This document shows, one piece after another, positions 24,298-43,382 of a DNA stretch of 64,000 nt. The stretch's first letter is position 1. Each line of letters starts with the position of its first letter. Source of the DNA: Mycobacteroides abscessus ATCC 19977 (GTDB lineage: Bacteria > Actinomycetota > Actinomycetes > Mycobacteriales > Mycobacteriaceae); contig NC_010397.1 of the NCBI RefSeq assembly GCF_000069185.1, positions 2,542,001 to 2,606,000 of the forward strand, in the 5' to 3' direction. The position numbers were made by a program, and so were the translations under genes. The notes under the pieces are model-generated. The model did not search any database, was not told where the DNA came from, and was given only the letters and a program-made list of their open reading frames with translations.

Positions 24298-24323
24298 GGT
24301 TAGAGAACTGCTTGACCGGGTAT
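24298..24323 (+). promoter_or_regulatory. SigF-type promoter candidate
   Basis: GGTT, 16-nt spacer, GGGTAT. It lies just after the sigma factor gene and 36 bp upstream of a 48-codon gene with a good ribosome site. Confidence 0.6.
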
Positions 24324-24358
24324 ATGACGTGCCAAGCGGTCTGCCCTGGAGGTGTGCA

Positions 24359-24505
24359 ATGAGCCCATTGTCCTTGATTCGACGGTTCGCAGGCTTCGTG
24401 CGGCAGGGATACCCGCAGCATGCGCCTGCCGTCGGCCATTGTTCGCTGTTGGCATTGGCCCGGACACCCTCGGCGTCCACTCTGATTCACGACGATCAAG
24501 ATTAG
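24359..24505 (+). CDS. Small DUF3349-like protein (short or truncated)
   Basis: A 48-aa frame, ATG preceded by GGAGG at 8 nt and by a SigF-type promoter. Residues 8-35 (IRRFAGFVRQGYPQHAP, then CSLLALAR) follow the opening of DUF3349 proteins, whose consensus has an aromatic-rich helix, R-x-G-Y-P, and P-L-L-A-L-L. DUF3349 proteins are usually about 100 aa, so this lacks the C-terminal half. It may be a true short form or a decayed copy. Function unknown. Confidence 0.5.
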   Translation: MSPLSLIRRFAGFVRQGYPQHAPAVGHCSLLALARTPSASTLIHDDQD

Positions 24506-24795
24506 CTTTCGGGCCGTCATCCCCGTGCTCGCGCGCGCCGGGGTGTGCGTCCTCCACAAGGCGAAACACCCCTAGACGTGCGTTCCGTCCGGATGCGGTG
24601 TTGTCCTTTGCGCTGCGTCACTCGGCGACGAGAAACGTTGTGGACTAGCGCGAAGGGGCGTAGCGTCATCTTCAGGTTGAGTCCACAGCCGCGCAGGGTC
24701 TACTCGATGCCAGCGCAGAGCGCGGGCTTCTGCCCGGGCGACTGGCCTGGTGTCTCCGATCCGAAAAGAACGTACATTTCGATCGATGGAGTCAT
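24506..24795. other. Intergenic region, no gene seen
   Basis: 290 bp before the STAS gene. The overlapping frames here have no family resemblance. A GGTT-N17-GGGTCT string at about 24677-24703 is a weak SigF-like candidate for the STAS gene. Confidence 0.5.
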
Positions 24796-25218
24796 ATGTC
24801 TGTCATTGACCAAAATGCATCACGATTCGCGGCTCGAGCCAAAACCGGTGTGGTTTCGCTGTTTTCGTCAGCAGACGACACCGCAAGGTTCACGGCACAC
24901 TGGCACCGCCCGTCTGCGGTGTTGGTGCGAGCCACCGGCGAGATCGATGCAGTAAACGCTAATCACCTGGCCGAGTACGCGACCCGCTATTTGGACGGAC
25001 ACCGGACCTTGGTGCTCGATCTGCAGGGCCTGCGGTTTTTCGGAACTGATGGACTGGTGGCCTTGGATAGGGTGCGACGTCACTGCAAGGTACAGGGGAT
25101 CGACTGGACGGTCATACCGGGGGATGCCGTCACAAAGCTGCTCACCCTGAGCGGTGATATGGCCGCCTACCCAGTGAACGACGCGATACCCGACGTATGG
25201 AAGAAGTTGGCACAGTAG
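24796..25218 (+). CDS. STAS domain protein, anti-sigma factor antagonist-like
   Basis: A 140-aa protein. Residues 45-130 form a STAS domain: LVRATGEIDAVNANHL, LVLDLQGLRFFGTDGLVALDR. The loop that holds the phosphorylatable Ser in SpoIIAA (DSSG) is GTDG here, with Thr as the candidate phosphosite. Family members bind RsbW/UsfX-type anti-sigma kinases and free the sigma factor. It lies between the SigF-type gene and the anti-sigma gene, so the three plausibly form one partner-switching module. Confidence 0.8.
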   Translation: MSVIDQNASRFAARAKTGVVSLFSSADDTARFTAHWHRPSAVLVRATGEIDAVNANHLAEYATRYLDGHRTLVLDLQGLRFFGTDGLVALDRVRRHCKVQGIDWTVIPGDAVTKLLTLSGDMAAYPVNDAIPDVWKKLAQ

Positions 25219-25263
25219 CGGCGTAGCCGGTGGAAGAAGTTGGCACAGTAGCCGCGTAGCGGG
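25198..25263 (+). repeat. 33-bp tandem duplication over the STAS stop codon
   Basis: The unit beginning TGGAAGAAGTTGGCACAGTA is present twice (25198-25230 and 25231-25263) with two mismatches. The first copy encodes the last residues and stop of the STAS gene; the second is a non-coding echo. Confidence 0.9.
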
Positions 25264-25268
25264 CTCCG

Positions 25269-25724
25269 CTACCCGTTCGCCACGCGGACAGCGGAGCCGG
25301 TGTCGCGTAGCTTGGTCAGGCTGATTCCGACAATGTGCCCGACCGGATCATCCGGGTGCGCACGCTCAAATGTTTCCACGTGATCCGCCAGCGAGCTGAG
25401 CACATGCCAACTGAAGCTGTCGAGCGGAAAGACATCGCCCGGCTGACAGTGTGAATACACCGCCATGACCAACCGGTCCAGATGGAAGTCCAATCGGACC
25501 ACCAACATCGCGTTGGGTACCGAGGATCGGACCAGGCGAGTGCACGCTTCATCCGTGGCCAGTTTGAGGTCGGCCACCATGTCCATATCAAGATCGTCAA
25601 CCGTTGCGGCCGCGGCGACGACGGTGCGCATCATGGCCAGGTTCTCCAAGCGTGCCGCCATGTCGAACCTCAGAGATCGGTCGTCTGGGTGGCTGCCGGA
25701 ATGAGTGGTGTGGGCCTCGGTCAT
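25269..25724 (-). CDS. RsbW/UsfX-like anti-sigma factor (ATP-binding)
   Basis: A 151-aa protein. It closely follows the plan of mycobacterial UsfX (RsbW): FDMAARLENLAMMRTVV, then LKLATDEACTRLVRSS (the N-box of the GHKL ATPase fold), then DSFSWHVLSSLADHVETF. The start ATG 25724 has GGGAGA upstream. It is transcribed toward the STAS gene (convergent). It probably sequesters a SigF-family factor and phosphorylates STAS antagonists (inferred). Confidence 0.85.
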   Translation of the reverse strand: MTEAHTTHSGSHPDDRSLRFDMAARLENLAMMRTVVAAAATVDDLDMDMVADLKLATDEACTRLVRSSVPNAMLVVRLDFHLDRLVMAVYSHCQPGDVFPLDSFSWHVLSSLADHVETFERAHPDDPVGHIVGISLTKLRDTGSAVRVANG

Positions 25725-25754
25725 ATCTCTCCCAATGCGTCCTGCGTTTGAGAT

Positions 25755-25779
25755 TACCCGGATCATCGGTGCGCAACCA
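25755..25779 (-). promoter_or_regulatory. SigF-type promoter candidate for the UsfX-like gene
   Basis: On the reverse strand GGTT, N15, GGGTAA. The predicted transcription start is about 24 nt upstream of the ATG, leaving room for the GGGAGA ribosome site. Confidence 0.55.
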
Positions 25780-25906: not shown

Positions 25907-26671
25907 TCACGGGGCACCCCGCATCGGCACGCTCGCGGCCAGCGCGGCGTGTTCCGTGGGGCTGGGCAGCGCGTATACCGCATAGGCCGAACGCAATACC
26001 GGCTGCGCCACATTGCGCACAGCCACACCGCCAGGTGTGCGTCCCTTCTCGGCGCCGGCGTGAGCGTGCCCGTGTAAAACGAGATCGGCGCCGGCTTGGT
26101 CGATAGCCTCCCCGAGTAGGTAAGAGCCCAAAAAAGGATAGATTTCGAGCGGTTCACCACCCAGAGTCTCCGGAATAGGGGCGTAGTGCAACAAGGCAAT
26201 TCGAAGGTCGGTATCGAGCTCACGCAGAGCGCACGCCAGCCGGTTGGCCTGCGACATGGTGTGCCCGACAAACGCCTTCATCTCAGGCTCGCCGAAGCTG
26301 CTCCCGCAGCGCCCCGCGAAACCACCACCGAACCCCTTGATTCCGGCGATACCCACCGAGCTACCGGATATATCTACTCGGGTGCTATCACCGTCCAACA
26401 CCGTAATGCCGTGATTTCGCAGAGTCGTGGTGAGCTCGGCCGCATGGTCGGCGTGGTAGTCGTGATTACCCAATACCGCCACCACCGGCACCGGAAGTTC
26501 GGCGAATTCGCCAGCCACCGTCATCGCCTCCGCGGCGGTTCCCGTTCTCGTGAGATCGCCTGCCAGTAAAAGAATATCGGCGTGCTGATCGATGTCGTCG
26601 AATGCGGGGCGCAATTGCATGCCCGAGTCCTCGCCGAGATGTATGTCGCCGACAGCCGCGACGCGGATCAC
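25907..26671 (-). CDS. Metallophosphoesterase (calcineurin-like)
   Basis: A 254-aa protein with the full metal-binding set: VGDIHLG (about 7-13), LLLAGDLTRTG (about 34-44), VLGNHDYH (about 66-73), LLHYAP and LHGHAHAG near 201. Members hydrolyse phosphomonoesters or diesters with two metals. It overlaps the nucleotidyltransferase-BON gene by 4 bp, so nucleotide or phosphodiester chemistry may be linked. The substrate is unknown. Confidence 0.85.
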   Translation of the reverse strand: MIRVAAVGDIHLGEDSGMQLRPAFDDIDQHADILLLAGDLTRTGTAAEAMTVAGEFAELPVPVVAVLGNHDYHADHAAELTTTLRNHGITVLDGDSTRVDISGSSVGIAGIKGFGGGFAGRCGSSFGEPEMKAFVGHTMSQANRLACALRELDTDLRIALLHYAPIPETLGGEPLEIYPFLGSYLLGEAIDQAGADLVLHGHAHAGAEKGRTPGGVAVRNVAQPVLRSAYAVYALPSPTEHAALAASVPMRGAP

Positions 26672-27474
26672 GAGATCATCTCCGCCGGTCCGGGTTTGCC
26701 GGTGTCGGAGACTCGCACCATGTTTCGTATCTGTATACCGGGGGCGTACTCCCGGGCCACGACGGCGAGCATGTCACGGCGATGCGAGCAGTCGACCTCT
26801 CCGTCTAGCGCCACGGTGTCGCCGTTGAACGTCACTTGCACCCCCAGCTCGGCGGTGCGGGCATCTTCGGCAAATCTCCTTCGTAGTTCGGCCTCGTCGT
26901 ATTGTCGGGTGTCATTCGTTCTTGCGTTCGTCGATTCGACGATCTCCAAGCCCACCAACAAGTTGAGAAATGCTGTGGCATAGGGTGATTGCTCCGTCGA
27001 GCGATGGACCTGGCGCCAGTCGACCTGTTCCCGGATGGCGCGGGCGATACTGAGTACCGGGCCAAAGTCGCAACGGTGCGAGTCCAGTACCAGGAGTTTG
27101 TCGACCATCAGATCAGTTGCGGTGACTACCGGGGCGCGTGTCGGCCCGATTTGCATGGGTTCGGCCCGAGCCAGAAAGTTCGCGTCGACGGGCCGGTCGT
27201 GGGGGCAGAAGATGAGGTCGACCAACACACTTCCGTCGTAGGCCTTGGTAAGCCAGTTCTCCGGTGGGTCCTCCAGCCGCAGACCTGCCTCGTGCAAGGC
27301 GGCTGCCGCGGACGGCACGTCCTGCTCTCTGAGGAAGATGTCGATGTCATGCGTGGTTACCGGGCCGCCTCGTGCGTAGACCGCACACCCGCCGGCCACC
27401 GCGAACGCGATGTCCTTTTGAGTCAGCGCCGTTACCACCCTGGTGAGCGTCCGGAGCAGTGCCTGTTCATTCAT
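26668..27474 (-). CDS. Nucleotidyltransferase-like protein fused to a BON domain
   Basis: A 268-aa protein. Residues 10-130 look like a minimal nucleotidyltransferase fold: FAVAGGCAVYARGGPVTTHDIDIFL, in which G-G...D-I-D supplies the active-site pattern, then VLVDLIF. Residues about 195-258 form a BON-like domain (FAEDARTAELGVQVTFNGDT, VALDGEVDCSHRRDMLAVV). BON domains usually bind membranes or envelope components; the fusion to a nucleotidyltransferase is unusual. It is coupled to the phosphoesterase downstream by ATGA overlap. Confidence 0.7.
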   Translation of the reverse strand: MNEQALLRTLTRVVTALTQKDIAFAVAGGCAVYARGGPVTTHDIDIFLREQDVPSAAAALHEAGLRLEDPPENWLTKAYDGSVLVDLIFCPHDRPVDANFLARAEPMQIGPTRAPVVTATDLMVDKLLVLDSHRCDFGPVLSIARAIREQVDWRQVHRSTEQSPYATAFLNLLVGLEIVESTNARTNDTRQYDEAELRRRFAEDARTAELGVQVTFNGDTVALDGEVDCSHRRDMLAVVAREYAPGIQIRNMVRVSDTGKPGPAEMIS

Positions 27475-27506
27475 GGTGGACGTCGCCTACCCGCTGACCC
27501 GCCGGC

Positions 27507-27929
27507 TCAATCATGGACCTGCGCGGCGTCATCATGTGAATTCTGACCGGCCTCGTGGTGCAAACGACGATGTACTTCCTCCTGTTCGTAGATCTCCCGG
27601 TCCTCGATGTCTATTGCTTCCTCACGCGCAGCGGGGATCGCGCTGATGAGCTCGTCCAATTTCAGCAGCACCGCATTCGTGTCCCGGTTGGTGGTGTGCT
27701 GGATGATGAACAACATCAGGAGGCTGACCAGGGCTCCCGTGGAGTAGACCAGCGTCTGCCACCAGCCGGGGAAGGCGGTGGACAGACCGATGACCAGAAG
27801 TATCACGACTACGGCTATTGCTATCAACGACAACCAAATCGAGCCAGCCCATCGCGTGATAAGGCCGGGCACCAGCGCCAGCCGAGCCCGCCACGTCAAC
27901 CCGTCGTTATGACGAATCCGTGCTCTCAT
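27507..27929 (-). CDS. Low-affinity iron permease family membrane protein (second copy)
   Basis: A 140-aa protein with two transmembrane helices (about 30-55 and 60-82) and LIIQHTTNRDTNAVLLKLDELI-like sequence, the diagnostic segment of the low-affinity iron permease family (PF04120 type): F-I-I-Q-x-T-x-x-R-D followed by K-L-D-E-L. The start overlaps the end of the upstream paralogue by 23 bp. Iron transport has not been shown for bacterial members. Confidence 0.72.
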   Translation of the reverse strand: MRARIRHNDGLTWRARLALVPGLITRWAGSIWLSLIAIAVVVILLVIGLSTAFPGWWQTLVYSTGALVSLLMLFIIQHTTNRDTNAVLLKLDELISAIPAAREEAIDIEDREIYEQEEVHRRLHHEAGQNSHDDAAQVHD

Positions 27930-28341
27930 GTTCTTCGAGCCCTACGGCGTCAAGAAGCTCAATCCGGTCTCGATCGAGCTGCGGGGCCAGCTGCGGATCC
28001 ATATGCCCCAACGCGTTAGTGATGTCGGCGAGCGCGTCGGCTATCCCGTTGAGCTTCTGCTGGACCGCGTCATCGGACCTACGCTGCGTGTTCTGGAGCA
28101 ATGCCACCAGCAAGAACGTGATGATCGTGGTCAAGGTGTTGATGACCAACTGCCAGGTATCGATGTTGAGGAAGGCGAAGCTTGGTGCCCACACGACCAC
28201 AATCAGCACACACATGACGAAAAACCATGGCTGCGAGACGTGCCCCGACATGGTGGTCGCGAATCTGTCGAATGCCGAAACGTGTTGGCTTACCTCGGAC
28301 GGATAAATGGCCTTATCGTGCGGGCTGGTGCTATTTCGCAT
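27907..28341 (-). CDS. Low-affinity iron permease family membrane protein (first copy)
   Basis: A 144-aa protein with an N-terminal amphipathic stretch (FDRFATTMSGHVSQPWFF), two transmembrane helices, then LLVALLQNTQRRSDDAVQQK and KLNGIADALADI, the family signature. The start ATG 28341 follows a SigF-type promoter by about 25 nt. It forms an overlapping pair with its paralogue, probably one membrane complex or a recent duplication. Confidence 0.75.
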   Translation of the reverse strand: MRNSTSPHDKAIYPSEVSQHVSAFDRFATTMSGHVSQPWFFVMCVLIVVVWAPSFAFLNIDTWQLVINTLTTIITFLLVALLQNTQRRSDDAVQQKLNGIADALADITNALGHMDPQLAPQLDRDRIELLDAVGLEEHESTDSS

Positions 28342-28372: not shown

Positions 28373-28397
28373 TTACCCCACACGGCAACCTTTAAAC
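28373..28397 (-). promoter_or_regulatory. SigF-type promoter candidate for the iron permease-like pair
   Basis: On the reverse strand GTTT, N15, GGGTAA; predicted start of transcription about 25 nt before ATG 28341. Confidence 0.65.
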
Positions 28398-28830: not shown

Positions 28831-29130
28831 CTAGTCGTGGTGAGGTACCGAATGTTCCTGGTGCCATTCGGCTTCCATCCGGCGAACCCGTCGGCGCTCG
28901 ACGTGCATCCAGAGCCACCCGAGGAAGAAGAACACCAGGGCCGCGATGCCGGCCACCAACGTCCAGCCATAGAACATGTACGCGGCGGCAGCCAAACCGA
29001 GGACCACCGAGAGCACGCCGAGGGCAATGAAGGCAAGGCCCGGCCACGCCACCCGATCCTTCAGCGACTCGCCGGCATGCGGGCGAAATGTACGCGCGTG
29101 GTCAACGGGGTCGATTCCATCGTCGTGCAT
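28831..29130 (-). CDS. UsfY-like membrane protein
   Basis: A 99-aa protein with two transmembrane helices (about 30-52 and 55-75). The opening PVDHARTFRPHAGESLKD, WPG, and C-terminal WMHVERRRVRRMEAEW match UsfY, the small protein encoded upstream of usfX in the M. tuberculosis sigF locus. Here it follows the frameshifted flavodoxin-like gene by 8 bp, with AGGAGG before its ATG. Its presence supports a SigF-related role for the region. Confidence 0.72.
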   Translation of the reverse strand: MHDDGIDPVDHARTFRPHAGESLKDRVAWPGLAFIALGVLSVVLGLAAAAYMFYGWTLVAGIAALVFFFLGWLWMHVERRRVRRMEAEWHQEHSVPHHD

Positions 29131-29138
29131 GATTCCTC

Positions 29139-29761
29139 CTATTGAGCTGCGGGATAGCGGTATTCACGCAGTAATTGCGCAAGATGTGTGGCGTTGTGTG
29201 CCGCGGAGGCCGTCGCCGACGCCACGGCCTCCGGCACGCTGTCCAGCTCGCGATAATCCTTTTTGTGCATGGCCTCGCCATTCCAATAGGTGCAGCCCTG
29301 GCGGGCACGCTGAAACCAATGTCGTTGAGCGCCTGGAAAAGATCGGCGGTGATTTTGTGCGCGCCATCCTCGTTTCCCACCACCGCGGCGACAGCCACCT
29401 TCCCCGAAAGAATGGGTCTGCCTTCTTCATCGGTCTCCGAGAGCTCCGCGTCGAGCCGCTCCAGGACGCGTTGCGCCACGCTCGACATATGGCCAAGCCA
29501 CGTGGGTGTGCCCAGCACCAGAATGTCCGCGCCCAGCACCTTGTCACGCAATTGCGGCCACTGGTCGCCGTTCCCCATGTCTTGCCCGACACCGGGATGA
29601 ATGTCGTAGTCGACGCACCGGATGCTTTCGCAGTGCACGCCGTCGTGGCCCAGCACTTCGGCCAATTGGTTGGTGAGCATTTCGGTGCTGGAGTGCTCTC
29701 CCGTGCGCTTCAGGCTGCACACCAAACTCAACGCGCGCAATGGCTCTTGGACAATGGTCAT
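29139..29761 (-). pseudogene. Flavodoxin-like NAD(P)H-dependent oxidoreductase, frameshifted
   Basis: The N-terminal 150 residues are a good flavodoxin-like fold: SLVCSLKRTGEHSSTEM, ADILVLGTPTWLGHMSSVAQ, VAVAAVVGNEDGAHKI. Near 29299-29300 the frame is lost: it reads VPARAAPIG and then an Arg-rich tail ending at 29102. Adding one base after codon GCC restores GCTYWNGEAMHKKDYREL and a family-like C-terminus ending at the stop 29139-29141, 8 bp before usfY-like. Either a real inactivating deletion or a sequencing error. Confidence 0.75.
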
Positions 29762-29770: not shown

Positions 29771-29795
29771 GTACCCACAATTCAGCTCACAAAAC
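29771..29795 (-). promoter_or_regulatory. SigF-type promoter candidate for flavodoxin-like/UsfY-like operon
   Basis: On the reverse strand GTTT, N15, GGGTAC. The predicted transcription start falls about 3 nt before ATG 29761, so the mRNA would be nearly leaderless. Confidence 0.65.
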
Positions 29796-30485: not shown

Positions 30486-31166
30486 CTAGCGGGGGATCCG
30501 CTGGTGGGCGGTCAGGAGCAGACGGTCGTATACCGATCTCGCCGGCAGGGTCTTGTCAAAATCCAGGGTTCCGAAGTCCACGACCACCTGCTGGGCAAGC
30601 GCGCGTAGTTTGACGTTGTTTTCCTGCGACCGCCATTTGAGCACATCGAACGCGGCGTCGGCGTTGAGCCGATAGACAAGCATCAACATGCCCTTCGCCT
30701 GCTCGATGACGCTGCGGTTCTCCGCAATTTCGACAACGGCCACCGTCAAAGAGTTTTCACGCTCCTGCCGGATGGATGAGGTGACATCCACATAGAAGCC
30801 GTGGGTGCCGACGACAACGCCATTGTCGTCACACAGCTGGTCCCCGATGACCACCACGTGATGGACGTGCTGCTGCACGTCGATGATGCGATGGCGGGTG
30901 CTGAATGCCTGCGCCGTGCGCCGAATCTCCTGGAGGGTCGCGGCCACTTGGCGATAATCGTCCGGGTGTTTGTGCGAGAGGATGATCTCTGTAGTCGGTG
31001 TGATTTCGTCGGGCCCATATCCGTGCATCTGGGCTACCTGCGGGGACCACTCCCACCGTTCGTCGGCAAAGTAGAAGCGAAACCAGCCGACATGTTGTGG
31101 CGATCCACCGGCGAGCGCCTGCGCTAGTTCGCTGTCGGCCTCCTCTTCGGATAGCTCATCGGACAT
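30486..31166 (-). CDS. PAS-ANTAR domain regulatory protein
   Basis: A 226-aa protein. Residues 25-130 form a PAS fold (WFRFYFADERWEWSPQVAQM, HGYGPDEITP, HKHPDD). Residues about 145-205 are an ANTAR domain (VEIAENRSVIEQAKGMLMLV, DAAFDVLKWRSQENNVKL). ANTAR proteins bind paired hairpins in leader RNAs and stop termination; the PAS domain is the sensor. It is divergent from the PLP decarboxylase gene. Confidence 0.85.
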   Translation of the reverse strand: MSDELSEEEADSELAQALAGGSPQHVGWFRFYFADERWEWSPQVAQMHGYGPDEITPTTEIILSHKHPDDYRQVAATLQEIRRTAQAFSTRHRIIDVQQHVHHVVVIGDQLCDDNGVVVGTHGFYVDVTSSIRQERENSLTVAVVEIAENRSVIEQAKGMLMLVYRLNADAAFDVLKWRSQENNVKLRALAQQVVVDFGTLDFDKTLPARSVYDRLLLTAHQRIPR

Positions 31167-31244: not shown

Positions 31245-31269
31245 GTTTAGCGAATTACCTACAGGGTAT
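31245..31269 (+). promoter_or_regulatory. SigF-type promoter, perfect consensus
   Basis: GTTT, N15, GGGTAT. The predicted transcription start (about 31276) is about 4 nt before a 58-codon frame and about 180 nt before the PLP decarboxylase gene. Confidence 0.7.
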
Positions 31270-31279: not shown

Positions 31280-31456
31280 ATGCATCGCACAAGGCAAGCA
31301 CACGGCGTGCTGCGGCAAGCATCCGACTCTGGATCTCCCTTTACCTATTGCGCATTCTGGAGTGGCCGTTGTGGACACTCGCGACACGTGGACTCGGCAG
31401 TTGTCGAGGCGGCGGGTCTTAAGTACATCGGCAACGGACTACCGGAAGGATTCTGA
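31280..31456 (+). CDS. Possible 58-aa leader ORF coupled to the decarboxylase
   Basis: An ATG lies about 4 nt after the predicted SigF transcription start, so it could be read as a leaderless ORF; no ribosome site is present. The frame runs to a TGA that overlaps the decarboxylase ATG (TGATG). The product (start MHRTRQAHGV, three Cys in the middle, end LPEGF) matches no family I know. The perfect overlap suggests coupling; chance is possible. Confidence 0.3.
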   Translation: MHRTRQAHGVLRQASDSGSPFTYCAFWSGRCGHSRHVDSAVVEAAGLKYIGNGLPEGF

Positions 31457-34722: not shown

Positions 34723-35139
34723 TCAGTCCTTTCGGCTCTCGCGCCGATTGGCTTTTTCGATCGCGGCAACGAGTTCCTCTTTATTCATGCTTGAGCGGCC
34801 GCGGATTTCGAGCCTGCGCGCGATGGACAGCAGGTGATCCTTGGTGGCGCTGGTGTCTACGCCCTCGGCCGTCTTACCCCGCGCGTTCGGGCCGCCGCTT
34901 CGCGCCCGCTCGTCGGAAGGCCCCCGAGTTTCCTTCTCTTCCCAGTGGTCACCGACCTTTTCGAAGCTGTGCTTCAGCGCCGCGTAAGCGACGCGGTGCG
35001 CATGCTGACCCTCGCCATAGGTTTTGACCGCGGAGTCGTGAGCCTTGGCGAAGGTGCGCTGGGCCTTGTCGCTCGATTTACGCAGGGTGTCGGGCAGTTC
35101 GCTCTGCTTGGCTCTACCTTTGCTTGTGGTCTTGGGCAT
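34723..35139 (-). CDS. ChaB family protein with Rho-N/SAP-like C-terminal domain
   Basis: A 138-aa protein. Residues 12-68 are a ChaB domain (SELPDTLRKSSDKAQRTF, AVKTYGEGQHAHRVAYAAL, HSFEKVGDHWEE). Residues about 98-132 look like a Rho N-terminal/SAP helix motif (KDHLLSIARRLEIRG, NKEELVAAIEKANR). ChaB is named for cation transport regulation, but many members are small stress proteins. It is 30 bp after the DUF5709-like gene and shares its SigF promoter. Confidence 0.78.
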   Translation of the reverse strand: MPKTTSKGRAKQSELPDTLRKSSDKAQRTFAKAHDSAVKTYGEGQHAHRVAYAALKHSFEKVGDHWEEKETRGPSDERARSGGPNARGKTAEGVDTSATKDHLLSIARRLEIRGRSSMNKEELVAAIEKANRRESRKD

Positions 35140-35169
35140 GGTGTTCTCCTTTCATGGACTACGCCAGAC

Positions 35170-35436
35170 TCACTCGTCGGGCGCCGGGTCTTCGGCCGTC
35201 TCCCGGTCAACATCCGGGCGTTCGGCCCACAACTTCTTGTCGAGGGATTCGCCCTCCGACGCCTCGTTGGCGACCAATCCGAATTTCCCGGAAGCTGACC
35301 ACTTTTGGGGCGGCTCGACGGGCTCGTCACCGTCGGCGTTGTGCATTTCGTCAGAATCGGTGGACTCGCTGACGTTCAATGTGTCGCCGGGTCCCGCCTC
35401 GTCATCGCCGACATCCTCGTATTTTCCGACAGACAT
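35170..35436 (-). CDS. DUF5709-like acidic small protein
   Basis: An 88-aa, strongly acidic, probably unstructured protein. The middle (PGDTLNVSES) and C-terminal GESLDKKLWAERPDV resemble the E-T-L-D-Q-R-L-x-E-E-x-P-D-V end of DUF5709 proteins. No ribosome site; the SigF-type promoter would start the mRNA about 4 nt before ATG, so translation is likely leaderless. First gene of an operon with ChaB-like. Confidence 0.55.
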   Translation of the reverse strand: MSVGKYEDVGDDEAGPGDTLNVSESTDSDEMHNADGDEPVEPPQKWSASGKFGLVANEASEGESLDKKLWAERPDVDRETAEDPAPDE

Positions 35437-35446: not shown

Positions 35447-35471
35447 TTACCCGCCCAGCGACGCACCAAAC
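35447..35471 (-). promoter_or_regulatory. SigF-type promoter candidate for DUF5709-like/ChaB-like operon
   Basis: On the reverse strand GTTT, N15, GGGTAA. Its -35 overlaps the last base of the catalase stop codon, so the promoter is buried at the catalase gene end. Confidence 0.65.
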
Positions 35472-37579
35472 TATGCGGGCACCATCTCGGTCTCGCGTTC
35501 CCAGGCGCGATGCCGGCTGATCGCTGTGACAAACGCGGCCACGAATTCGGCCGGCAATGCATTGGCCTCCGCGGTGGTCGTCACCACGCCGTCGTCAACC
35601 ACAATCTCCGTGGTGGTGGCAAGTGTTTCGACCACAGAGGCTGCCCGGAGCAGATCGAGTCCGGAACCGTAGGCCGCGACGGGCTTGAGATGTTTGTAGG
35701 CCTCGGAAACGAAATGCACGGCGAAGCCGTTGCGCGCCAGCCGCCAGGCGGATTCGGCTCCGGAGGGTACGACTACGGCGTCGTATAACACCGAGGCCAT
35801 CGTGGTCATCGCGCGGTCGACGCGGAGTTCGCCGCCGGATTCGCCGGTGAGCGTTCCGCCGCCAGTCGGTGCGAGTATCTCGACAATCGCGTCGCTCTCT
35901 TCCAGCGCCGCACGAAGCAACTCCACGCCGTGAATATCGACGCCGTCGGCCGCGAGCACCGCGATCCGTCGGGTGGCGATGCTGTCTCGGGTGGTGGAAA
36001 GCTGGGACAGCGCCGGGGACGGTGGAAGAGCCTCGTCGGCCGATTGCGGCGCTGGGGCGGGTAAGCCCAGCTGCAAGGCGACTTGAGAAGCAAGATCGTG
36101 TTCCACCAGGTTGAGTTGAGCGACAACACGTTCGCGAATCCCGGCCTCGGCACTCACCTTGCCCAGTTCGAACGAGAATGCCGAAACGATGTGCTGCGCC
36201 TCGACGGCGGACATACTGTTCCAGAACATCCGCGGCTGGCTGTAGAAATCCTTGAAGCTCTCGGCGCGCTGGCGGATCTTATGTCCGTCCACTCGTTGGG
36301 TGTAGTGGCGGAAGACATCTTCATGTGCCAGGGCCGGACAGCCGCCGCCGAGGGTGTTCTTGAAATAGCTGGACTTGCCTTGTGGGATGTCATGCTGCGC
36401 GAAGCCGTCTCGCTGGTTGTTGTGTACCTCGGCGATCGGTCTGTTGATGGGCAGTTGTGCGAAGTTCGGACCGCCCAGGCGGATCAGTTGTGTATCCAGG
36501 TAGGAGAAGTTACGAAACTGAAGCAGCGGGTCGTTGGTGAAGTCGATTCCCGGCACCACGTTGGCCGTGTGGAATGCGACCTGTTCTGTCTCGGCAAAGA
36601 AGTTGTCGGGGTTCCGATCCAGCACCATGCGTCCGACCGGCTGCACCGGAACCTGTTCTTCCGGAATGATTTTCGTTGAATCAAGAAGGTCGAAGGGGAA
36701 TTTGAACTCGTCGGATTCCGGCACCAGCTGCACTCCGAGTTCCCATTCCGGAAACTGGCCGGACTCAATCGCGTCCCAGAGATCGCGCCGGTTGAAATCG
36801 GGGTCCTTGCCGGCGATCTGCTGACATTCGTCCCACAGCAGTGAGTGCACGCCCAGCAGCGGCTTCCAGTGGAACTTCACAAAAACGCCCTCGCCGGCGT
36901 CGTTGACCAACCGGAAGGTGTGTACGCCGAACCCTTGCATCATGCGGTAGCTGCGGGGCAGAGCCCTATCGGACATGAGCCACATGATCGCGTGTAGCGT
37001 CTCGGGCTGCTCGGCAACGAAGTCCCACAAGGTGTCATGCGCCGAGGCGGCCTGCGGGATCTCGTTGTCGGGCTCAGGCTTCACCGCGTGCACGAAGTCC
37101 GGAAATTTGATGCCGTCCTGGATAAAGAATACCGGGAAATTGTTGCCGACCAGATCGTAATTGCCTTGCTGTGTATAGAATTTCGTGGCAAATCCGCGTA
37201 CGTCGCGCACGGTGTCTGCCGAGCCGCGGGACCCCGCAACGGTAGAGAAACGAACGAACACCGGTGTGCGCAGGCCGGGTGTGGTGAGAAATTTCGCGGC
37301 TGTGAAGTCCGATAGCCACGCGTCGTACGGCTCGAAGTAGCCGTATGCGCCCGCGCCGCGCGCATGAACCACACGCTCTGGAATGCGCTCGTGGTCAAAA
37401 TGCGTGACTATCTCGCGGGCGTGAAAATCCTCCAGCAGCGTGGGGCCCCTGACACCGGCGGTGAGCGCGTCATCGGTGTGGTCGACGCGAACGCCTTGCT
37501 GGGTAGTGAGATAACCAGAGGCTCGGTCCACCCGGGACGTGTCGAGTTGCTCTTGTTTGGGATTCGACGTGCGGTCCAC
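35471..37579 (-). CDS. katE: Large-subunit monofunctional catalase (KatE/HPII type)
   Basis: A 702-aa clade 2 catalase. Residues include the essential His in [15 protein letters not shown], Asn in [13 protein letters not shown], and the haem Tyr in [16 protein letters not shown]. The C-terminal 170 residues form the flavodoxin/DJ-1-like domain of large catalases ([30 protein letters not shown]). The start is GTG 37579 after AAGGAG; a SigF-type promoter lies 39 bp upstream. It removes hydrogen peroxide in the cytosol. It is unrelated to KatG. Confidence 0.92.
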
Positions 37580-37617: not shown

Positions 37618-37642
37618 GTACCCCGGTAGCCGAACGACAAAC
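37618..37642 (-). promoter_or_regulatory. SigF-type promoter candidate for catalase
   Basis: On the reverse strand GTTT, N15, GGGTAC; predicted transcription start about 32 nt before GTG 37579. Confidence 0.65.
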
Positions 37643-37673: not shown

Positions 37674-38222
37674 TTACAACGGAAGTCGAGGTTGTTCGGG
37701 CGCTTCTGGCATATATGTCGAACGGAAGTTGCTGGAACGAAAGGCCAGCGGCAGCGCCAGCCAGCACAAACCAAATGCGATCAGCGCGAACACGCCAGCG
37801 GCGATGCCCGCACGGCGTCCCGAGACGGTATCGAAGATAATGTCGGTAACCCCGGCCATGGCCAATCCGAGCAACAGCAGGCCCGCGAATGCCAAGCGGT
37901 GTGCCGCCGAAACCAGTACCGGAAGGCGGTGCTGGCGAAAGAGAACTCGATGCATGCCAACAGGCGCCACCAGCAGCATGGTAGAGGCGATTGAACAGCA
38001 GACGGTGGCCAAGTACACCATCCGCATCGGGTGATCGAGCATGTCGAAGCGCTGCTGAAAAGGAAGCGTGAGTAGTAGACCGGTAAGGAGCTGCACACCT
38101 GTCTGCATAACCCGCAGCTCCTGCAGGAGGCTGGTCCAGTTCCGGTCGAGCCGTTCGGTGACGGTTTCGTGGCGGGCCGACTGGTTCCACCTCTGATCGT
38201 CCTCCGGGTGGTCAACGTCCAC
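37674..38222 (-). CDS. DUF6328-like membrane protein
   Basis: About 182 aa from GTG 38222. An N-terminal basic/acidic segment (ERLDRNWTSLLQELRVMQTG) is followed by four transmembrane helices. The LLQELRVMQTGVQ and FQQRFDML motifs match the DUF6328 family of unknown function. An ATG further upstream in frame gives an implausible hydrophilic extension. The SigF-like promoter at 38232-38256 would start the mRNA within about 3 nt of this GTG. Confidence 0.68.
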   Translation of the reverse strand: MDVDHPEDDQRWNQSARHETVTERLDRNWTSLLQELRVMQTGVQLLTGLLLTLPFQQRFDMLDHPMRMVYLATVCCSIASTMLLVAPVGMHRVLFRQHRLPVLVSAAHRLAFAGLLLLGLAMAGVTDIIFDTVSGRRAGIAAGVFALIAFGLCWLALPLAFRSSNFRSTYMPEAPEQPRLPL

Positions 38223-38231: not shown

Positions 38232-38256
38232 ATCCCCGGTTTGAACCGAACGAAAC
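38232..38256 (-). promoter_or_regulatory. SigF-like promoter candidate for DUF6328-like gene
   Basis: On the reverse strand GTTT, N15, GGGGAT (one mismatch in the -10). It overlaps an oppositely directed SigF-like site by 18 bp. Confidence 0.45.
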
Positions 38257-38264
38257 CTGGGTAC
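38239..38264 (+). promoter_or_regulatory. SigF-type promoter candidate for Gly/Pro-rich lipoprotein gene
   Basis: GTTT, N16, GGGTAC; predicted transcription start about 3 nt before ATG 38274, again nearly leaderless. Confidence 0.55.
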
Positions 38265-38273: not shown

Positions 38274-38609
38274 ATGCATACAAAAGCCAGGACTACGGTA
38301 GGTGTGGCCGTCGGATCGATGGCCCTGATCGCCTCGTTGATCGGTTGCGGCACCGACGCGCCACCGCGCAGCGTCGGGACCACCACCCAAACGCCCGCGC
38401 CCCCGCCTGGGGGCAGCGGCAGTGTGCCGGGCGGGCCGACGGGCGGAGGCGGCCCGGAGGGTGGCGCGGGCAGCATCCCAGGTGGGCCGACGGGAGGTGG
38501 TGGCCCAGGAGGAGGCGGAGGAGAGATCCCCGGCGGCCCCACCGGTAGCGGTGGTCCCGGCGGCGGAAGCGGATGCATTCCCAACGTGGGGTGCGTGAAC
38601 GTGCCTTAG
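38274..38609 (+). CDS. Gly/Pro-repeat lipoprotein
   Basis: A 111-aa protein with signal peptide and lipobox ASLIGC (Cys25). The mature part has three 17-residue repeats with core IPGGPTGGGGPGG (residues 47-97) and a short tail with two Cys (CIPNVGC). It is probably a flexible envelope-attached protein. The family is unknown. It lies 22 bp upstream of the hemophore-like gene and may share its transcript. Confidence 0.55.
   Translation: MHTKARTTVGVAVGSMALIASLIGCGTDAPPRSVGTTTQTPAPPPGGSGSVPGGPTGGGGPEGGAGSIPGGPTGGGGPGGGGGEIPGGPTGSGGPGGGSGCIPNVGCVNVP
38412..38564 (+). repeat. Three 51-bp in-frame tandem repeats
   Basis: The repeats encode 17-aa units with core V/I-P-G-G-P-T-G inside the lipoprotein gene. 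They are imperfect at the DNA level; copy number may vary between strains. Confidence 0.7.
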
Positions 38610-38952: not shown

Positions 38953-38960
38953 GACGCGTG

Positions 38961-39656
38961 TCAGCCTAACGGGCGGTCTTCGACGATCGCCCGCGCGATC
39001 TCCACCAGTTTGGTGTTGAAATCCTGTGACAGCGTCCTGATGACGGTGAACGCTTCTGCGGCATTGATGCTGAAACGCTCCATCAGCATTCCCTTGGCCT
39101 GACCAATGACGTCGCGCGACGCAAGGGCTGAGGCCCATTGCGACTCACGCTGCGCCGCCACCAGCACGATCGCGGCGTGCGTGGCCAACGCCAGTCCAGC
39201 GTCATAGGAGTCAGCGCCGAACGCACCTGGCGACTGCGCGTAAAGGTTAAGCGCTCCAAGGTTTTCACCGAAGGTGAACAACTGGAAGGACAGCATCGAC
39301 CGAACGCCGAGCTTCACCGCCGCCTCGGCGAAACGCGGCCACGGCGTCGTCTGGGCAAGATCTTCGGCATACACCGTCTCGTGTTCCCATGCCGACTGCA
39401 CGCACGGGCCCTCGCGCAACTCCTGCTGAATGTCATCGAGTTTGCGTGGCGTTTCCGACGTCGCCGCCCTCGACTCAATTTCGTAGCGCCCGGTGACCAG
39501 CGTTATGCCGGCTTGCTCCACACCGGGCACGGTCTCGAGTGCCGCGGTGGTGATCGACCTGAGCGTCATTTCGACGCTGGAGTGCTCCTGCTGCATGCGG
39601 CGCGCGGCGTCCGCGATTTTCGCGCTGAACGCTCCGGCAGCCGCCTCATCGGTCAC
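38961..39656 (-). CDS. GAF-ANTAR domain regulatory protein
   Basis: A 231-aa protein from GTG 39656. A GAF domain (about 25-165: VEQAGITLVTGRYEIESR, REGPCVQSAWEHETV, SMLSFQLFTFGENLGALNLY) is followed by ANTAR (ALASRDVIGQAKGMLMERF, NAAEAFTVIRTLSQDFNTK). It is a likely RNA-binding antiterminator that senses a small ligand or redox change. The second ANTAR protein of the island. The first codons could also be extended upstream. Confidence 0.85.
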   Translation of the reverse strand: MTDEAAAGAFSAKIADAARRMQQEHSSVEMTLRSITTAALETVPGVEQAGITLVTGRYEIESRAATSETPRKLDDIQQELREGPCVQSAWEHETVYAEDLAQTTPWPRFAEAAVKLGVRSMLSFQLFTFGENLGALNLYAQSPGAFGADSYDAGLALATHAAIVLVAAQRESQWASALASRDVIGQAKGMLMERFSINAAEAFTVIRTLSQDFNTKLVEIARAIVEDRPLG

Positions 39657-39809
39657 TCGGCCATCTTGCCAGTTTCTGTGGGACAGCGACCGAAAATGCC
39701 TGTTGGGCAGCTTCCGGTAGTGTCCGCTACCAGTGGAGCCCTTACACTCAGCTAATTTCGCGGCGATACCGCCCACCCGCTGCGTAGTTATGCGATAGGA
39801 GCCCCGCCC

Positions 39810-41165
39810 GTGAACAGTGCCCCCGACACGCTCACCCGGGGCCTCTCCGCTCGCCATATCCGTTTTATCGCGCTGGGATCAGCTATCGGGACAGGCCTGT
39901 TCTACGGTTCGGCGGAGGCGATCAGGCAAGCGGGCCCGTCGGTGCTGGTGGCCTACCTGCTGGGCGGGGCGGTGATCTACATCGTGCTGCGATCGCTGGG
40001 GGAGATGGCGGTACGCCGCCCGGTGGCAGGATCGTTCGGTGAGTACGCCACGCAGTACCTAGGGCCGTTGGCAGGCTTTCTCACCGGTTGGACGTACGCG
40101 CTGGAGATGGTCGTCGTCTGCCTGGCCGATGTGACCGCATTCGGGGTCTACATGGGTTTCTGGTTCCCCGGAGTGCCGCGCTGGGTTTGGGTGTTCTCGA
40201 TCATCTTCTTCATCGGCGCGATAAATCTGCTCAGCGTCAAGGTTTTCGGGGAGGTCGAATTCTGGCTCAGCCTGGTGAAGGTTCTTGCCATTGTCGCGAT
40301 GATCGCTGGTGGCATAGCAATCCTCGTGTGGGGCAGCTCAACTGGGCGCGAAGAGCAGCGCGGCATCGCCAACTTGTGGAATGACGGGGGCTTCTTCCCT
40401 CATGGACTGGCCGGGTTCGTGGGCAGCTTCATGATCGTGATGTTCGCGTTCGGTGGTACCGAGATCATCGGGATCACGGCGGGCGAGGCGAAGGATCCGG
40501 CGCGGACGATTCCACGGGCCGTCAACACCGTCCCCGTGCGCATCATCTTGTTCTATGTCCTCACCCTCGCTGTGATCATGGCTCTCTACCCCTGGCGGTC
40601 GATCGATTCGAACAGCAGCCCGTTTGTGCAGATATTTGAAGGGCTGGGATTCACATCGGCGGCGACCGTGCTGAACCTTGTTGTGGTGACTGCCGCGCTG
40701 TCGGCCATCAACAGCGACATCTTCGCCGCTGGCCGGATGATTTACGGCATGGCCCAGCGGGGTCAGGCTCCGGCGGTCATGCGGCGGGTATCGCGTAATG
40801 GTGTGCCGTGGATGACGGTGGTAGTCATGACGGTCGCGCTGCTGGTAGGCGTGGTGCTGAACTATGCGATCGAAGAGCGTGTCTTCGTCATCATCGCGTC
40901 CGTCGCCACCTTCGCGACGATCTTTGTTTGGCTGATGATCCTTCTGGCCCACTTTAGGTTCCGCGCCCAACAGCACCACGGCGAGGCATCGGTGGCGGAC
41001 TTCCCGGTGCCGGGCTGGCCGTACCTGCAGGTGTTCGCTACGGGGTTCCTGATGTTCGTTGTGCTCTTACTCGGCTTCGGTGCGGACACGCGTGTCGCGC
41101 TCATCGTCGGAGCAGCGTGGCTGCTGGTGCTCGTGGGTGCTTTCGCGATGTCCAGAAGACGGTAG
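39810..41165 (+). CDS. Amino acid permease (APC superfamily, AAT type)
   Basis: A 451-aa protein with twelve transmembrane helices. Family signature: [55 protein letters not shown] and [19 protein letters not shown]. These are typical of proline/aromatic/D-alanine-type AAT permeases. The substrate cannot be told. No SigF site is seen directly upstream, so it may be ordinary housekeeping inside the island. Confidence 0.85.
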
Positions 41166-41198: not shown

Positions 41199-41224
41199 GT
41201 TTCGGGGCTGTCCGGCCCGGGTAC
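41199..41224 (+). promoter_or_regulatory. SigF-type promoter candidate for the 64-aa gene
   Basis: GTTT, N16, GGGTAC, 46 bp before ATG 41271, which has GAGGGAG as ribosome site. Confidence 0.5.
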
Positions 41225-41270
41225 TCGGCGTGACATTCGACAGCCAATGGGCGATACGAGGGAGCGGACA

Positions 41271-41465
41271 ATGGCGGTATTTCCGGGAAGCACTTTTCAG
41301 CGGTCTCTGCCCGGAGGGCAGTCGGTGACCTACACGGTCAGGGCTGTGCGCTTCGCGCCAGTACCGTATGCAGAGGTTGAACCGGTTGGTGGGGGAGCAC
41401 GTGAGGCGCTGTCCATGTGGACCGTCGAACGCATGCAAACCAATCAGCCTCTGCCTGATCGGTGA
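41271..41465 (+). CDS. Small protein, unknown
   Basis: A 64-aa soluble protein, start MAVFPGSTFQRSLPGGQSVT, with mixed beta-like pattern and no Cys. I do not recognise a family. It has its own ribosome site and SigF-type promoter and is convergent with the TPP enzyme gene (8-bp gap), which supports its being real. Confidence 0.5.
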   Translation: MAVFPGSTFQRSLPGGQSVTYTVRAVRFAPVPYAEVEPVGGGAREALSMWTVERMQTNQPLPDR

Positions 41466-41473
41466 CGCAGGTT

Positions 41474-43273
41474 CTATGGCCGGTCCCGCTTTGGGAGCGG
41501 AACATACTGCTGCAATTTCTGTTTGATGCCTTGTCGGGTAAACCCGGCGGTGTCTTCGTCGCCGCCGACGACGGCGCCGACCAGCGATGTGACCTCGTCG
41601 ACCGTGGCGTGCGGGGGAATGGGCGGAACGTCAGGATCGCAGCGTACGTCGAGTACGGTGGGCCGATCCGCGGAAAGGGCTCTGTCCCATGCGCCGGCGA
41701 TCTGTGCGGGGTCCTCGATGTTGTCGCCGCGCAAGTCCAGACCCCGCGCAAATCTCGCATGGTCGACATCCGGAAGAGTCTGTGATTCAGCGAATTTGGG
41801 CGAGCCTTCCATGGCCCGCATCTCCCAGGTGACCTGGTTGAGGTCGTTGTTGTGCAGGACCACGACCACCAGGCGCGGATCGGCCCACTGCCGCCAGTAC
41901 CTCGCGATGGTGATGAGCTCGTTCATCCCATTCATCTGCATCGCGCCATCTCCCACGAAGGCGATTCCAGGTCGGTCGGGATGTGCCCATTTCGCGCCGA
42001 TGGCATACGGCACACCAGGTCCCATGGTCGCGAGCGTGCCCGACAGCGAGCCACGCACGCCGTCGGTGAAGCGCAGATGACGCGCGTACCAATTGGCCGA
42101 GGAGCCGGAATCCGCGGTGATGATGGCATTGGGCGGCATACGTTTCGTCAGCTCCCAGAAAATCCGCATGGGATTGACCGGATCGGCGTTCGTCATGGCG
42201 GTGCGTTGCACGGTTGTCCACCAGCCGCGGGTCTTCTTCTCTATGTGCTCGCGCCATGAGCGATCGGGCTTGCGCTCCAGAAGGGGGATGAGGGCTTGCA
42301 GTGTGTCTTTGGCGTCGCCAACCAAGTTGAGTTCATACGGGTAGCGCATACCGATCCATTTGCCCGAACGGTCGATCTGCACCGCGCGGGCCTGCCCGAG
42401 ATCCGGAAGGAATTGAGTGTAGGGAAAGTTCGATCCCACGGTGAGCAGGGTGTCGCAGTCGCGCATGAGATGCCAACTGGCGGTGGTGCCGAGCAGACCG
42501 ATAGATCCGGTGACCCAGGGAAGATCATCGGGCAGCACATCCTTGCCCAGCAATGCTTTTGCGGCGCCTGCTCCTAAAAGGTCGGCAAGGGCGGTGAGCT
42601 CGGCAACGCACCCACGGGCGCCCTGCCCGACAAGCAGGGCTACCTTCTTGCCCGAGTTGAGCAAGTCGGCCGCTGCCCTCAGGGCGTCGGGAGAGGGTAT
42701 CGAACGGGATCCCGACATGCCAAGGCTTGACGGAACCTGCTTGAAGGCATGAACAGGCGCTTCATAGCCGAGGTTGAATACGTCGGAGGGCACGATGATG
42801 GCCGTCGGTGTGGCCTCGGACAGCGCTATTCGTATCGCTCGATCCACCAGGTTGGGCAACTGCTGGGGCACCATGCACTGCTGCACGTAGTCACTGCAGA
42901 CGTCTTTGTACAGGCTCAAGAGATCGACCTCTTGCTGGTATGAGCCGCCCATTGCGGAACGATCGGCCTGGCCGACAATGGCTAGCACCGGGACGTGATC
43001 CAGTTTGGCGTCGTAGAGGCCGTTGAGCAGATGTATCGCACCCGGGCCGGATGTTGCCGTGCAGACACCGAGTTGGCCGGAGAACTTCGCGAAACCCACT
43101 GCTTCGAAGGCGGCCATCTCCTCGTGACGAGCCTGGACGAATTGTGGGTCGTTGTCGGCGCAACGCCAGGCCGCCAGTAATCCGTTGATGCCGTCGCCCG
43201 GATATCCGAAGACCTGTTGGACACCCCATTCTCGCAGGCGGGAAAGCAGGATGTCGCCGACCGTGCTGGACAT
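41474..43273 (-). CDS. Thiamine-pyrophosphate enzyme (pyruvate oxidase/PoxB-like)
   Basis: A 599-aa protein; GAGGAGG precedes ATG 43273. Three-domain TPP fold: VFGYPGDGINGLLAAW and HEEMAAFEAVGFAKF (catalytic Glu) in the Pyr domain, SGPGAIHLLNGLYDA, a central FAD-like domain, and GDGAMQMNGMNELI with later LHNNDLNQVTWE in the PP domain. It fits pyruvate:quinone oxidoreductase or a related acetolactate-synthase-fold enzyme. A SigF-like promoter (43358-43382) suggests stress or stationary-phase use. It may produce acetate or CO2 from pyruvate. Confidence 0.85.
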   Translation of the reverse strand: MSSTVGDILLSRLREWGVQQVFGYPGDGINGLLAAWRCADNDPQFVQARHEEMAAFEAVGFAKFSGQLGVCTATSGPGAIHLLNGLYDAKLDHVPVLAIVGQADRSAMGGSYQQEVDLLSLYKDVCSDYVQQCMVPQQLPNLVDRAIRIALSEATPTAIIVPSDVFNLGYEAPVHAFKQVPSSLGMSGSRSIPSPDALRAAADLLNSGKKVALLVGQGARGCVAELTALADLLGAGAAKALLGKDVLPDDLPWVTGSIGLLGTTASWHLMRDCDTLLTVGSNFPYTQFLPDLGQARAVQIDRSGKWIGMRYPYELNLVGDAKDTLQALIPLLERKPDRSWREHIEKKTRGWWTTVQRTAMTNADPVNPMRIFWELTKRMPPNAIITADSGSSANWYARHLRFTDGVRGSLSGTLATMGPGVPYAIGAKWAHPDRPGIAFVGDGAMQMNGMNELITIARYWRQWADPRLVVVVLHNNDLNQVTWEMRAMEGSPKFAESQTLPDVDHARFARGLDLRGDNIEDPAQIAGAWDRALSADRPTVLDVRCDPDVPPIPPHATVDEVTSLVGAVVGGDEDTAGFTRQGIKQKLQQYVPLPKRDRP

Positions 43274-43357
43274 GGTTCCTCCTCGCAGGGATTCTGTGCG
43301 TGACGTGCGTCCGGGCGGCGATGACAAGATCTCCGATCGCCTCGACGCTCGATCGGC

Positions 43358-43382
43358 ATTCCCTATCGGGCGTTGCGCAAAC
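43358..43382 (-). promoter_or_regulatory. SigF-like promoter candidate for TPP enzyme
   Basis: On the reverse strand GTTT, N15, GGGAAT (one mismatch). It lies about 85 bp upstream of ATG 43273 and marks the right edge of the SigF-linked block. Confidence 0.5.

Follow-up and report, generated by a model that had tools for sequence, protein, structure and literature searches.

In Mycobacterium smegmatis, the SigF regulon has been described with promoters of the form GTTT-N15/16-GGGTA, and its listed targets include UsfY, ChaB, a methylase, RsbW, a catalase, an arginine decarboxylase, and PhoU (PMC4694148). The published table contains at least 28 rows tagged MSMEG_1758 to MSMEG_1804, i.e., a cluster by sigF, with the other rows distributed chromosome-wide; the site-to-start distances given there include 8 to 11 nt and 24 to 70 nt, and the consensus assigned to sigF itself sits 1001 bp upstream (PMC4694148). 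For Mycobacteroides abscessus, MAB_2511 is named sigF in print, and synthetic cystic fibrosis sputum induces it together with MAB_2512 (homologous to Rv0516c, a SigF regulator) and MAB_2513c (usfX), in passages that carry no regulon or promoter description; a map of 7,218 transcription starts in this organism is also in print (PMC4974804). MAB_2512 has been reported with its transcript up and its protein down in dormant and starved cells (PMC12689514). In the open-licence literature, we found no description of a SigF promoter or regulon for M. abscessus. Here, we analyzed 64,000 nt of the M. abscessus ATCC 19977 chromosome (NC_010397.1, positions 2,542,001 to 2,606,000; the whole stretch is hereafter called the window), in which the order and strands of MAB_2511 to MAB_2513c agree with that report, and we examined a block of predicted promoters and genes beside sigF. 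The sequence evidence indicates that this block is, with high probability, a regulon concentrated around the gene of its own SigF-type sigma factor (23465–24283). It shares with the M. smegmatis regulon the promoter form, the target descriptions, and the clustering by sigF, as far as the published table goes, but differs in that the other M. smegmatis sites are spread, whereas in M. abscessus the matches outside the block are close to background, sigF lies apart from rsbW, and of these two genes only rsbW carries a SigF site.

A preliminary description of this DNA had claimed at least 13 SigF-type sites upstream of named genes between positions 24298 and 43382 (19,085 bases; the interval), and a direct scan found such a site for all 13. 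With GTTT-N15/16-GGGTA(A/C/T) as the strict pattern, nine are exact matches (upstream of the iron-permease-like, FMN reductase/UsfY, decarboxylase, 75-amino-acid [aa], LGFP, 88-aa/ChaB, catalase, Gly/Pro lipoprotein, and 64-aa genes), two are GGTT variants (DUF3349-like open reading frame [ORF], N16; rsbW, N15), and the remaining two, upstream of the genes for DUF6328 and the thiamine-pyrophosphate (TPP) enzyme, depart from the pattern at one position, the imperfect TPP site being among the weakest members of the set. Two additional sites lie to the left of the interval (21199–21223, + strand, exact; 23201–23226, − strand, one mismatch), which gives 15 sites over 21199–43382 and a block of ~22 kb (~21.2 to 43.4 kb). 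The boxes and spacing agree with the M. smegmatis table (PMC4694148), as had been proposed when the sites were called the mycobacterial SigF promoter form. Specifically, the strict pattern occurred 10 times in the window, compared to a mean of 0.16 (maximum, 2) in 100 shuffles, and nine times in the interval, compared to at most three for any of 79 other letter permutations of the box pair; a first-order Markov model of the interval gave a mean of 0.04 matches (maximum, 1 in 300). The arrangement also proved spacing-specific: the interval holds seven matches at N15, two at N16, and one at N17, and among the remaining spacings from 8 to 25 only N11 gave a match (n = 1). Chance or base composition as the source of the sites was therefore ruled out by the shuffles, the box permutations, and the spacing scan. 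The sites and genes of the block are as follows, with positions given in window coordinates.

21199–21223 (+): redox-enzyme site, exact; 9 nt 5′ of GTG 21233; boxes kept in relative G074; outside the interval
21233–22252 (+): iron-containing redox enzyme (Haem_oxygenas_2; PF14518, E = 7e-56)
23201–23226 (−): methyltransferase site, one mismatch; 44 nt 5′ of ATG 23156
22461–23156 (−): small-domain methyltransferase, from a family search of window proteins
23465–24283 (+): SigF-type (group 3) sigma factor, sigF/MAB_2511; Pfam regions 2, 3, and 4; start ATG 23465 taken from the alignment of relatives
24298–24323 (+): DUF3349-like site, GGTT-N16-GGGTAT; 35 nt 5′ of ATG 24359
24359–24505 (+): 48-aa DUF3349-like microprotein (PF11829, E = 0.04, under the cut-off); comparable frame in three relatives
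24796–25218 (+): STAS-domain protein of anti-anti-sigma type, MAB_2512, from a domain search; another kind of conserved block upstream
25754–25778 (−): rsbW site, GGTT-N15-GGGTAA; 29 nt 5′ of ATG 25724
25269–25724 (−): RsbW/UsfX-type anti-sigma factor, MAB_2513c (PF13581)
28373–28397 (−): iron-permease operon site, exact; 31 nt 5′ of ATG 28341; boxes kept in G074, G112, and G193
25907–28341 (−): probable operon of contiguous co-stranded ORFs (two Iron_permease-family proteins, a nucleotidyltransferase, and a metallophosphoesterase)
29771–29795 (−): FMN reductase/UsfY site, exact; 9 nt 5′ of ATG 29761
28831–29761 (−): FMN-reductase-like ORF (PF03358), then UsfY (NF041247, over the cut-off)
31245–31269 (+): decarboxylase site, exact; 186 nt 5′ of ATG 31456; kept in G074
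31456–32922 (+): Orn/Lys/Arg decarboxylase (PF01276)
33921–33945 (−): 75-aa site, exact; 34 nt 5′ of ATG 33886; kept in G074
33659–33886 (−): 75-aa protein, no family in the family search
33951–33975 (+): LGFP site, exact; 38 nt 5′ of ATG 34014; divergent partner of the site at 33921
34014–34637 (+): LGFP-repeat protein (PF08310)
35447–35471 (−): 88-aa/ChaB site, exact; 10 nt 5′ of ATG 35436; in G074, GTTT and GGGTA kept and sixth base G
34723–35436 (−): 88-aa protein and ChaB (PF06150), probable operon
37618–37642 (−): catalase site, exact; 38 nt 5′ of GTG 37579; kept with diverged spacers in G074, G112, and G116
35471–37579 (−): large HPII-like catalase (PF00199; NF008422, 992 bits against a cut-off of 1102)
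38232–38256 (−): DUF6328 site, one mismatch (GGGGAT); 9 nt 5′ of GTG 38222
37674–38222 (−): DUF6328 protein (PF19853)
38239–38264 (+): lipoprotein site, exact; 9 nt 5′ of ATG 38274; GTTT and GGGTA kept in G074, G112, and G116
38274–38609 (+): Gly/Pro-rich lipoprotein-like protein, from its translation; no family over the cut-off
41199–41224 (+): 64-aa site, exact; 46 nt 5′ of ATG 41271
41271–41465 (+): 64-aa protein, no family in the family search
43358–43382 (−): TPP site, weak (GGGAAT); 84 nt 5′ of ATG 43273 or 30 nt 5′ of TTG 43327
41474–43273 (−): thiamine-pyrophosphate enzyme (PF02776, PF02775, and PF00205)

The sites behave as promoters would in their distance from the genes. When start codons 3′ of the sites are used, 13 of the 15 lie 9 to 46 nt from the end of the −10 box; in the two exceptions, the gap is 186 nt (decarboxylase) and 84 nt, or 30 nt to the TTG (TPP enzyme). 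For the redox enzyme, FMN reductase, DUF6328, lipoprotein, and 88-aa genes, the spacing is 9, 9, 9, 9, and 10 nt, respectively, so these five genes would fit leaderless transcripts; the eight others (rsbW, the first iron-permease gene, 75-aa, DUF3349-like, LGFP, catalase, methyltransferase, and 64-aa) show 29 to 46 nt. The chosen starts are predicted ones: mechanical starts on or before the sites were replaced by later codons for rsbW, the first iron-permease gene, and the 75-aa, LGFP, catalase, DUF6328, and redox-enzyme genes, and a 98-aa ORF at 24352 was dropped in favor of a start codon downstream of its site.

The boxes are also conserved over spacers that drift. Across 27 aligned pairs, which share ancestry and are not independent, covering 11 sites and five relatives (G074, G112, G116, G193, and G214), identity was 236/243 (97%) in the boxes and 280/418 (67%) in the spacers. 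The rsbW site aligned in all five relatives, with the boxes unchanged in four and changed in one. For the DUF3349-like site, the −10 box is kept in G074, G112, and G116 and the −35 box less so, and neither site nor ORF was seen in G193 and G214; the FMN reductase/UsfY site has counterparts in G074 and also in G112, where it precedes UsfY with no FMN reductase match there. Although the methyltransferase site could not be aligned by blastn, direct inspection revealed similar minus-strand boxes 212 to 225 nt upstream of sigF in three of the five relatives (one mismatch in G074 and G193, exact in G214). Taken together, the spacing, the start-codon distances, and the conserved boxes with drifting spacers support a reading of these boxes as promoters. 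The sites of the divergent DUF6328 and lipoprotein genes overlap (38232–38264), and the last base of the + strand box is G rather than C in G074, G112, and G116. In G116, a catalase-type SigF site is kept (L101, 11144–11169) with no catalase match found behind it.

Next, we consider how the sites are distributed across the genome (5,090,491 bases, with the reversed pattern as control). The strict pattern gave 32 matches compared to 19 for the control, 10 of them in the window and 9 within the 19,085 bases of the interval (binomial P ~4e-15), so the density here is indeed exceptional, a point that the preliminary description had left to a genome scan. Outside the window, 22 matches against a control of 19 represent no significant excess (P = 0.27). 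A still stricter form, GTTT-N15-GGGTAT, occurs 10 times in the genome (control, 0), with 3 of the 10 located within 2.8 kb in the block. Nine strict matches fall in one 20-kb stretch and 10 fall within 20 kb of the sigma gene, compared to 6, 3, and 3 within 20 kb of it in G074, G112, and G116, respectively. In comparison, G004, G006, and G011, near-complete assemblies chosen among 36 same-genus relatives for their clear excess, contain 40, 42, and 44 matches (controls: 11, 13, and 9), with no more than 4 per 20 kb and no more than 3 at distances of up to 20 kb from a SigF-type sigma gene. Matches outside the block compared to the whole-genome control numbered 18/14 in G112, 22/22 in G116, 17/11 in G193, and 19/16 in G214. 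The local concentration is a property of the M. abscessus genome and not of the whole group, and the detectable site excess in this genome is mostly, not absolutely, local. A candidate second cluster at 4.889–4.896 Mb was rejected, with a plausible gene behind only one of its three matches; a 59-aa protein encoded there (4896373) resembles the 64-aa protein of the block by eye, and the two have SigF-type sites 45 and 46 nt upstream, respectively.

The presence of the block can be compared to the presence of the sigma factor. A sigma factor match at an E-value of 1e-110 or better was found in only 6 of 396 genomes of the genus, its own included. In G074, the block is nearly collinear and most sites are present, with no match to the body of the LGFP protein or to the 64-aa protein and with the TPP enzyme matched elsewhere, while the blocks of G112, G116, G193, and G214 are shorter and carry some of the sites. 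The amino-acid permease at the right edge of the block is found at high similarity in eight of the 396 genomes, its own included. Two of these permease-bearing genomes, G244 and G267, have sigma factor matches of only ~30% and no RsbW match at an E-value of 1e-3. Within the 28 kb examined in G244, matches to the 33 proteins tried were limited to the permease and three genes on its right, and no site was seen; in G267, 4.2 kb of contig precedes the permease, and the 14 kb examined held the permease, a weak GAF-ANTAR match of 67 residues, and a lone site 7 kb to the right. Genome-wide matches in these two genomes numbered 21 (control, 18) and 19 (control, 15), respectively. The block is thus shown to be lost from one flank of G244 only, and island genes elsewhere in G244 and G267 were not searched for. 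Absence of sigF has also been reported for M. salmoniphilum-like strains and three M. salmoniphilum isolates (PMC6418233).

Several observations weigh against a regulon confined to the block or against a strict tie between site and gene. In G074, where this sigma factor is also present, 22 matches lie outside the block, compared to 10 for the control (P = 0.0007), and some of the 36 same-genus relatives show little excess at all (e.g., 27 vs 24 in G015 and 15 vs 12 in G029). Among the 13 of 22 outside matches examined in M. abscessus, plausible sites precede a CsbD-like gene, a haemophore-like gene, the 64-aa look-alike, and perhaps an Hsp20 gene, and strict patterns overlook degenerate promoters. 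Two outside matches (2028792 and 3091573) have counterparts in the SigF-less G244 and are doubtful as SigF promoters, so strict matches need not all serve SigF. Site and gene are also not always kept together, because three of the aligned pairs come from relatives in which the expected gene was not found behind the site (88-aa in G112, catalase in G116, and decarboxylase in G214), and the LGFP, 64-aa, and TPP sites could not be aligned by blastn in the five relatives. Of the SigF-linked set named in the preliminary description, ChaB, UsfY, and catalase are present with sites, but CsbD lies outside the block, with the SigF-type site of the CsbD-like gene 0.67 Mb away.

Some genes of the block have no SigF site of their own that we could find, namely, both ANTAR genes, phoU, the amino-acid permease gene, the STAS gene, and sigF. 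The permease was excluded as a regulon member, its near-upstream stretch being conserved in the SigF-less G244 as well. The two ANTAR-domain sensors (PAS-ANTAR and GAF-ANTAR; 30486–31166 and 38961–39857, − strand) sit within the block, and ANTAR genes also neighbor the SigF-type sigma gene of two Nocardia species (L078 and L080) and of Mycolicibacterium sp. P1-18 (L072). The FMN-reductase ORF (29102–29761, − strand) looks frameshifted in the assembly, and its C-terminal part appears to continue in another frame from ~29290. The long decarboxylase leader, alignable with G074 only poorly past its first part, was rejected as a structured RNA: it matches no Rfam family, none being found within 20000–46000 of the window, and its fold was no better than that of shuffled sequences (z = 0.47).

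The gene content by sigF includes both an RsbW-type ATPase and a STAS protein, as expected for partner switching. The rsbW gene lies downstream of sigF on the opposite strand, and its product is the only RsbW homologue found in the genome (E ≤ 1e-3). No SigF site directed at sigF itself was recognized upstream of that gene; strongly conserved blocks across the five relatives do occur there (~23270–23305, + strand) and upstream of the STAS gene (24673–24725, + strand), and no SigF site was recognized in either, the block at sigF being of another kind. Because the only rsbW gene found has a conserved SigF site while sigF has none, the arrangement suggests negative feedback, and since the upstream blocks of sigF and the STAS gene lack a recognized SigF site, other promoters appear to govern the input side.

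In the mechanism that we propose, the 15 sites would head ~15 transcription units. These would encode stress enzymes (catalase, FMN reductase, and the iron-containing redox enzyme), small stress proteins (UsfY, ChaB, and the DUF3349-like protein), envelope proteins (the LGFP protein and the lipoprotein), the amino-acid decarboxylase, and the anti-sigma factor RsbW. RsbW would hold the sigma factor until a STAS protein, such as the neighboring one, frees it under stress; the free sigma factor would then transcribe the block and more RsbW, and the added RsbW would end the response. The genes of the block (those for a large catalase, redox enzymes, ChaB, UsfY, the LGFP protein, and the decarboxylase) resemble the M. 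smegmatis SigF targets named in print, by description only, and it is likewise by description only that the methyltransferase is likened to the SigF-dependent "methylase" MSMEG_1771 (PMC4694148). We infer that the block may serve one general-stress programme.

The sigma factor itself has regions 2, 3, and 4, no match to region 1.1, and a SigF-like recognition helix, which places it in group 3 (SigF/SigB type), and it is the sole SigF-type sigma factor found in the genome, the other own-genome matches being only 30% identical. A SigF-type clade other than the rsbW-adjacent one (members G002a, G014a, G017a, G035a, G036a, L013, and L043) provides the closest sigma sequences; five of its loci (the "a" loci) have no rsbW match beside the sigma gene. 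Two loci with a second-clade sigma factor, L043 and L058, carry five and six strict sites by the sigma gene, several of them 9 nt before start codons. The region 4.2 recognition helix is nearly identical across both clades, so one promoter form for both is consistent. At the rsbW-sigF loci (G002b, G004a, G006a, L066, and L067), RsbW is encoded beside the sigma gene together with at least one of STAS, UsfY, DUF6328, and ChaB, but the sigma factor is of another clade, and in M. abscessus the order is broken, with rsbW on the other strand. Local sites are far from general, as 68 of 80 loci fetched around SigF-type sigma genes contain no strict site at all. Multiple sigF copies, one of them linked to rsbW, have been reported for M. 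mucogenicum (PMC6917791).

One could argue that the sigma factor is nonetheless truly orthologous to SigF of M. tuberculosis and M. smegmatis, with its gene moved off rsbW, and that a fast branch misled the tree. In a tree of 30 proteins, which includes neither of the named M. tuberculosis and M. smegmatis SigF proteins, it groups with the second clade (support, 99/98), and forcing it to join the rsbW-adjacent clade costs 19.6 log-likelihood units with a P value of 0.0146 in the approximately unbiased test, a value that is generous because the grouping was named after earlier trees had been seen and the set omits several long-branched rows of an earlier tree. In all five genomes with both kinds of copy (G002, G014, G017, G035, and G036), it is nearer to the second-clade copy (59 to 62% identity) than to the rsbW-adjacent copy (54 to 57%), but in G004 and G006, where the extra copy belongs to a third group, it is nearer to the rsbW-adjacent one. 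True orthology would also explain why rsbW, UsfY, DUF6328, the redox enzyme, ChaB, and the 88-aa gene flank rsbW-sigF in at least one of M. canariasense (L066), Mycolicibacterium sp. J2 (L067), and a metagenome-assembled genome (L065), why RsbW is 44 to 54% identical to the rsbW-adjacent type, and why the published annotation reads sigF (PMC4974804). With the tree grouping as it is and no co-directional rsbW immediately upstream, we consider this explanation rather unlikely: the name "SigF-type" is right by sequence, and orthology to the well-studied SigF is not supported. A different wiring would follow if RsbW acted like RsbW3 of M. smegmatis (MSMEG_1787), a SigF-driven RsbW homologue that antagonizes an anti-sigma factor, has a GGGTAA promoter, and is likewise not beside sigF (PMC7693655); SigF control would then be positive feedback. 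Of the two G020 homologues, the M. abscessus protein is nearer to the rsbW-adjacent one (46%, E = 3e-29) than to the second (39%, E = 3e-12), a comparison in which the second homologue stands for RsbW3 by inference and the M. smegmatis RsbW sequences took no part, and no other RsbW turned up in the M. abscessus genome at E ≤ 1e-3; we regard positive feedback as quite improbable.

The two remaining alternatives concern the block as a whole. Reading of the sites by another sigma factor (SigA, SigB, or an extracytoplasmic function [ECF] factor), with SigF incidental, could account for the outside match at 1879456, which recurs in G244, a genome with no SigF, and overlaps a TATCTT that SigA could use; yet GGGTA boxes at such spacing are the published SigF form (PMC4694148), and the cluster was not seen in the stretches fetched from the two genomes without the sigma factor, which leaves this explanation very little room. 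The block might instead be a recently acquired genomic island rather than an old regulon cluster, in keeping with its shorter forms in G112, G116, G193, and G214 and with its absence in G244 beside the retained right-hand flank. Against this, G074 is nearly collinear, several neighbors are common to rsbW-sigF loci of other mycobacteria and some to Nocardia, no integrase or transposase family was found among the proteins scanned, and the G+C content (0.60 to 0.64 per 2 kb) differs little from that elsewhere in the window. Recent acquisition thus appears unlikely, although gain and loss of the block are indistinguishable from the genomes compared. A local regulon of the neighboring SigF-type sigma factor, the proposal of the preliminary description, retains the promoter-like boxes, exactly one SigF-type sigma factor, and the lack of a cluster in the stretches fetched from the two sigma-less relatives; it needs amending in that several block genes have no site of their own that we could find and the local sigma factor does not group with the rsbW-adjacent mycobacterial SigF. 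Tentatively, and with more doubt than confidence, we suggest that in the abscessus-chelonae group a second SigF-type sigma factor took over RsbW and the promoters of a lost canonical SigF; in M. abscessus, the regulon would have contracted to one block by the sigma gene, kept, eroded, or lost with the sigma factor in relatives, and the sigma factor would drive its own inhibitor and not itself. A contraction across the whole group is weakened by the outside-block excess in G074, which also lowered our estimate for the contraction scenario as such.

A regulon packed beside its own regulator, together with natural relatives that do not have the regulator, would make the inheritance and loss of a general stress response testable in an opportunistic pathogen. 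Since the sigma factor appears to belong to another clade, results obtained with SigF of M. tuberculosis or M. smegmatis should not be transferred to M. abscessus by name alone.

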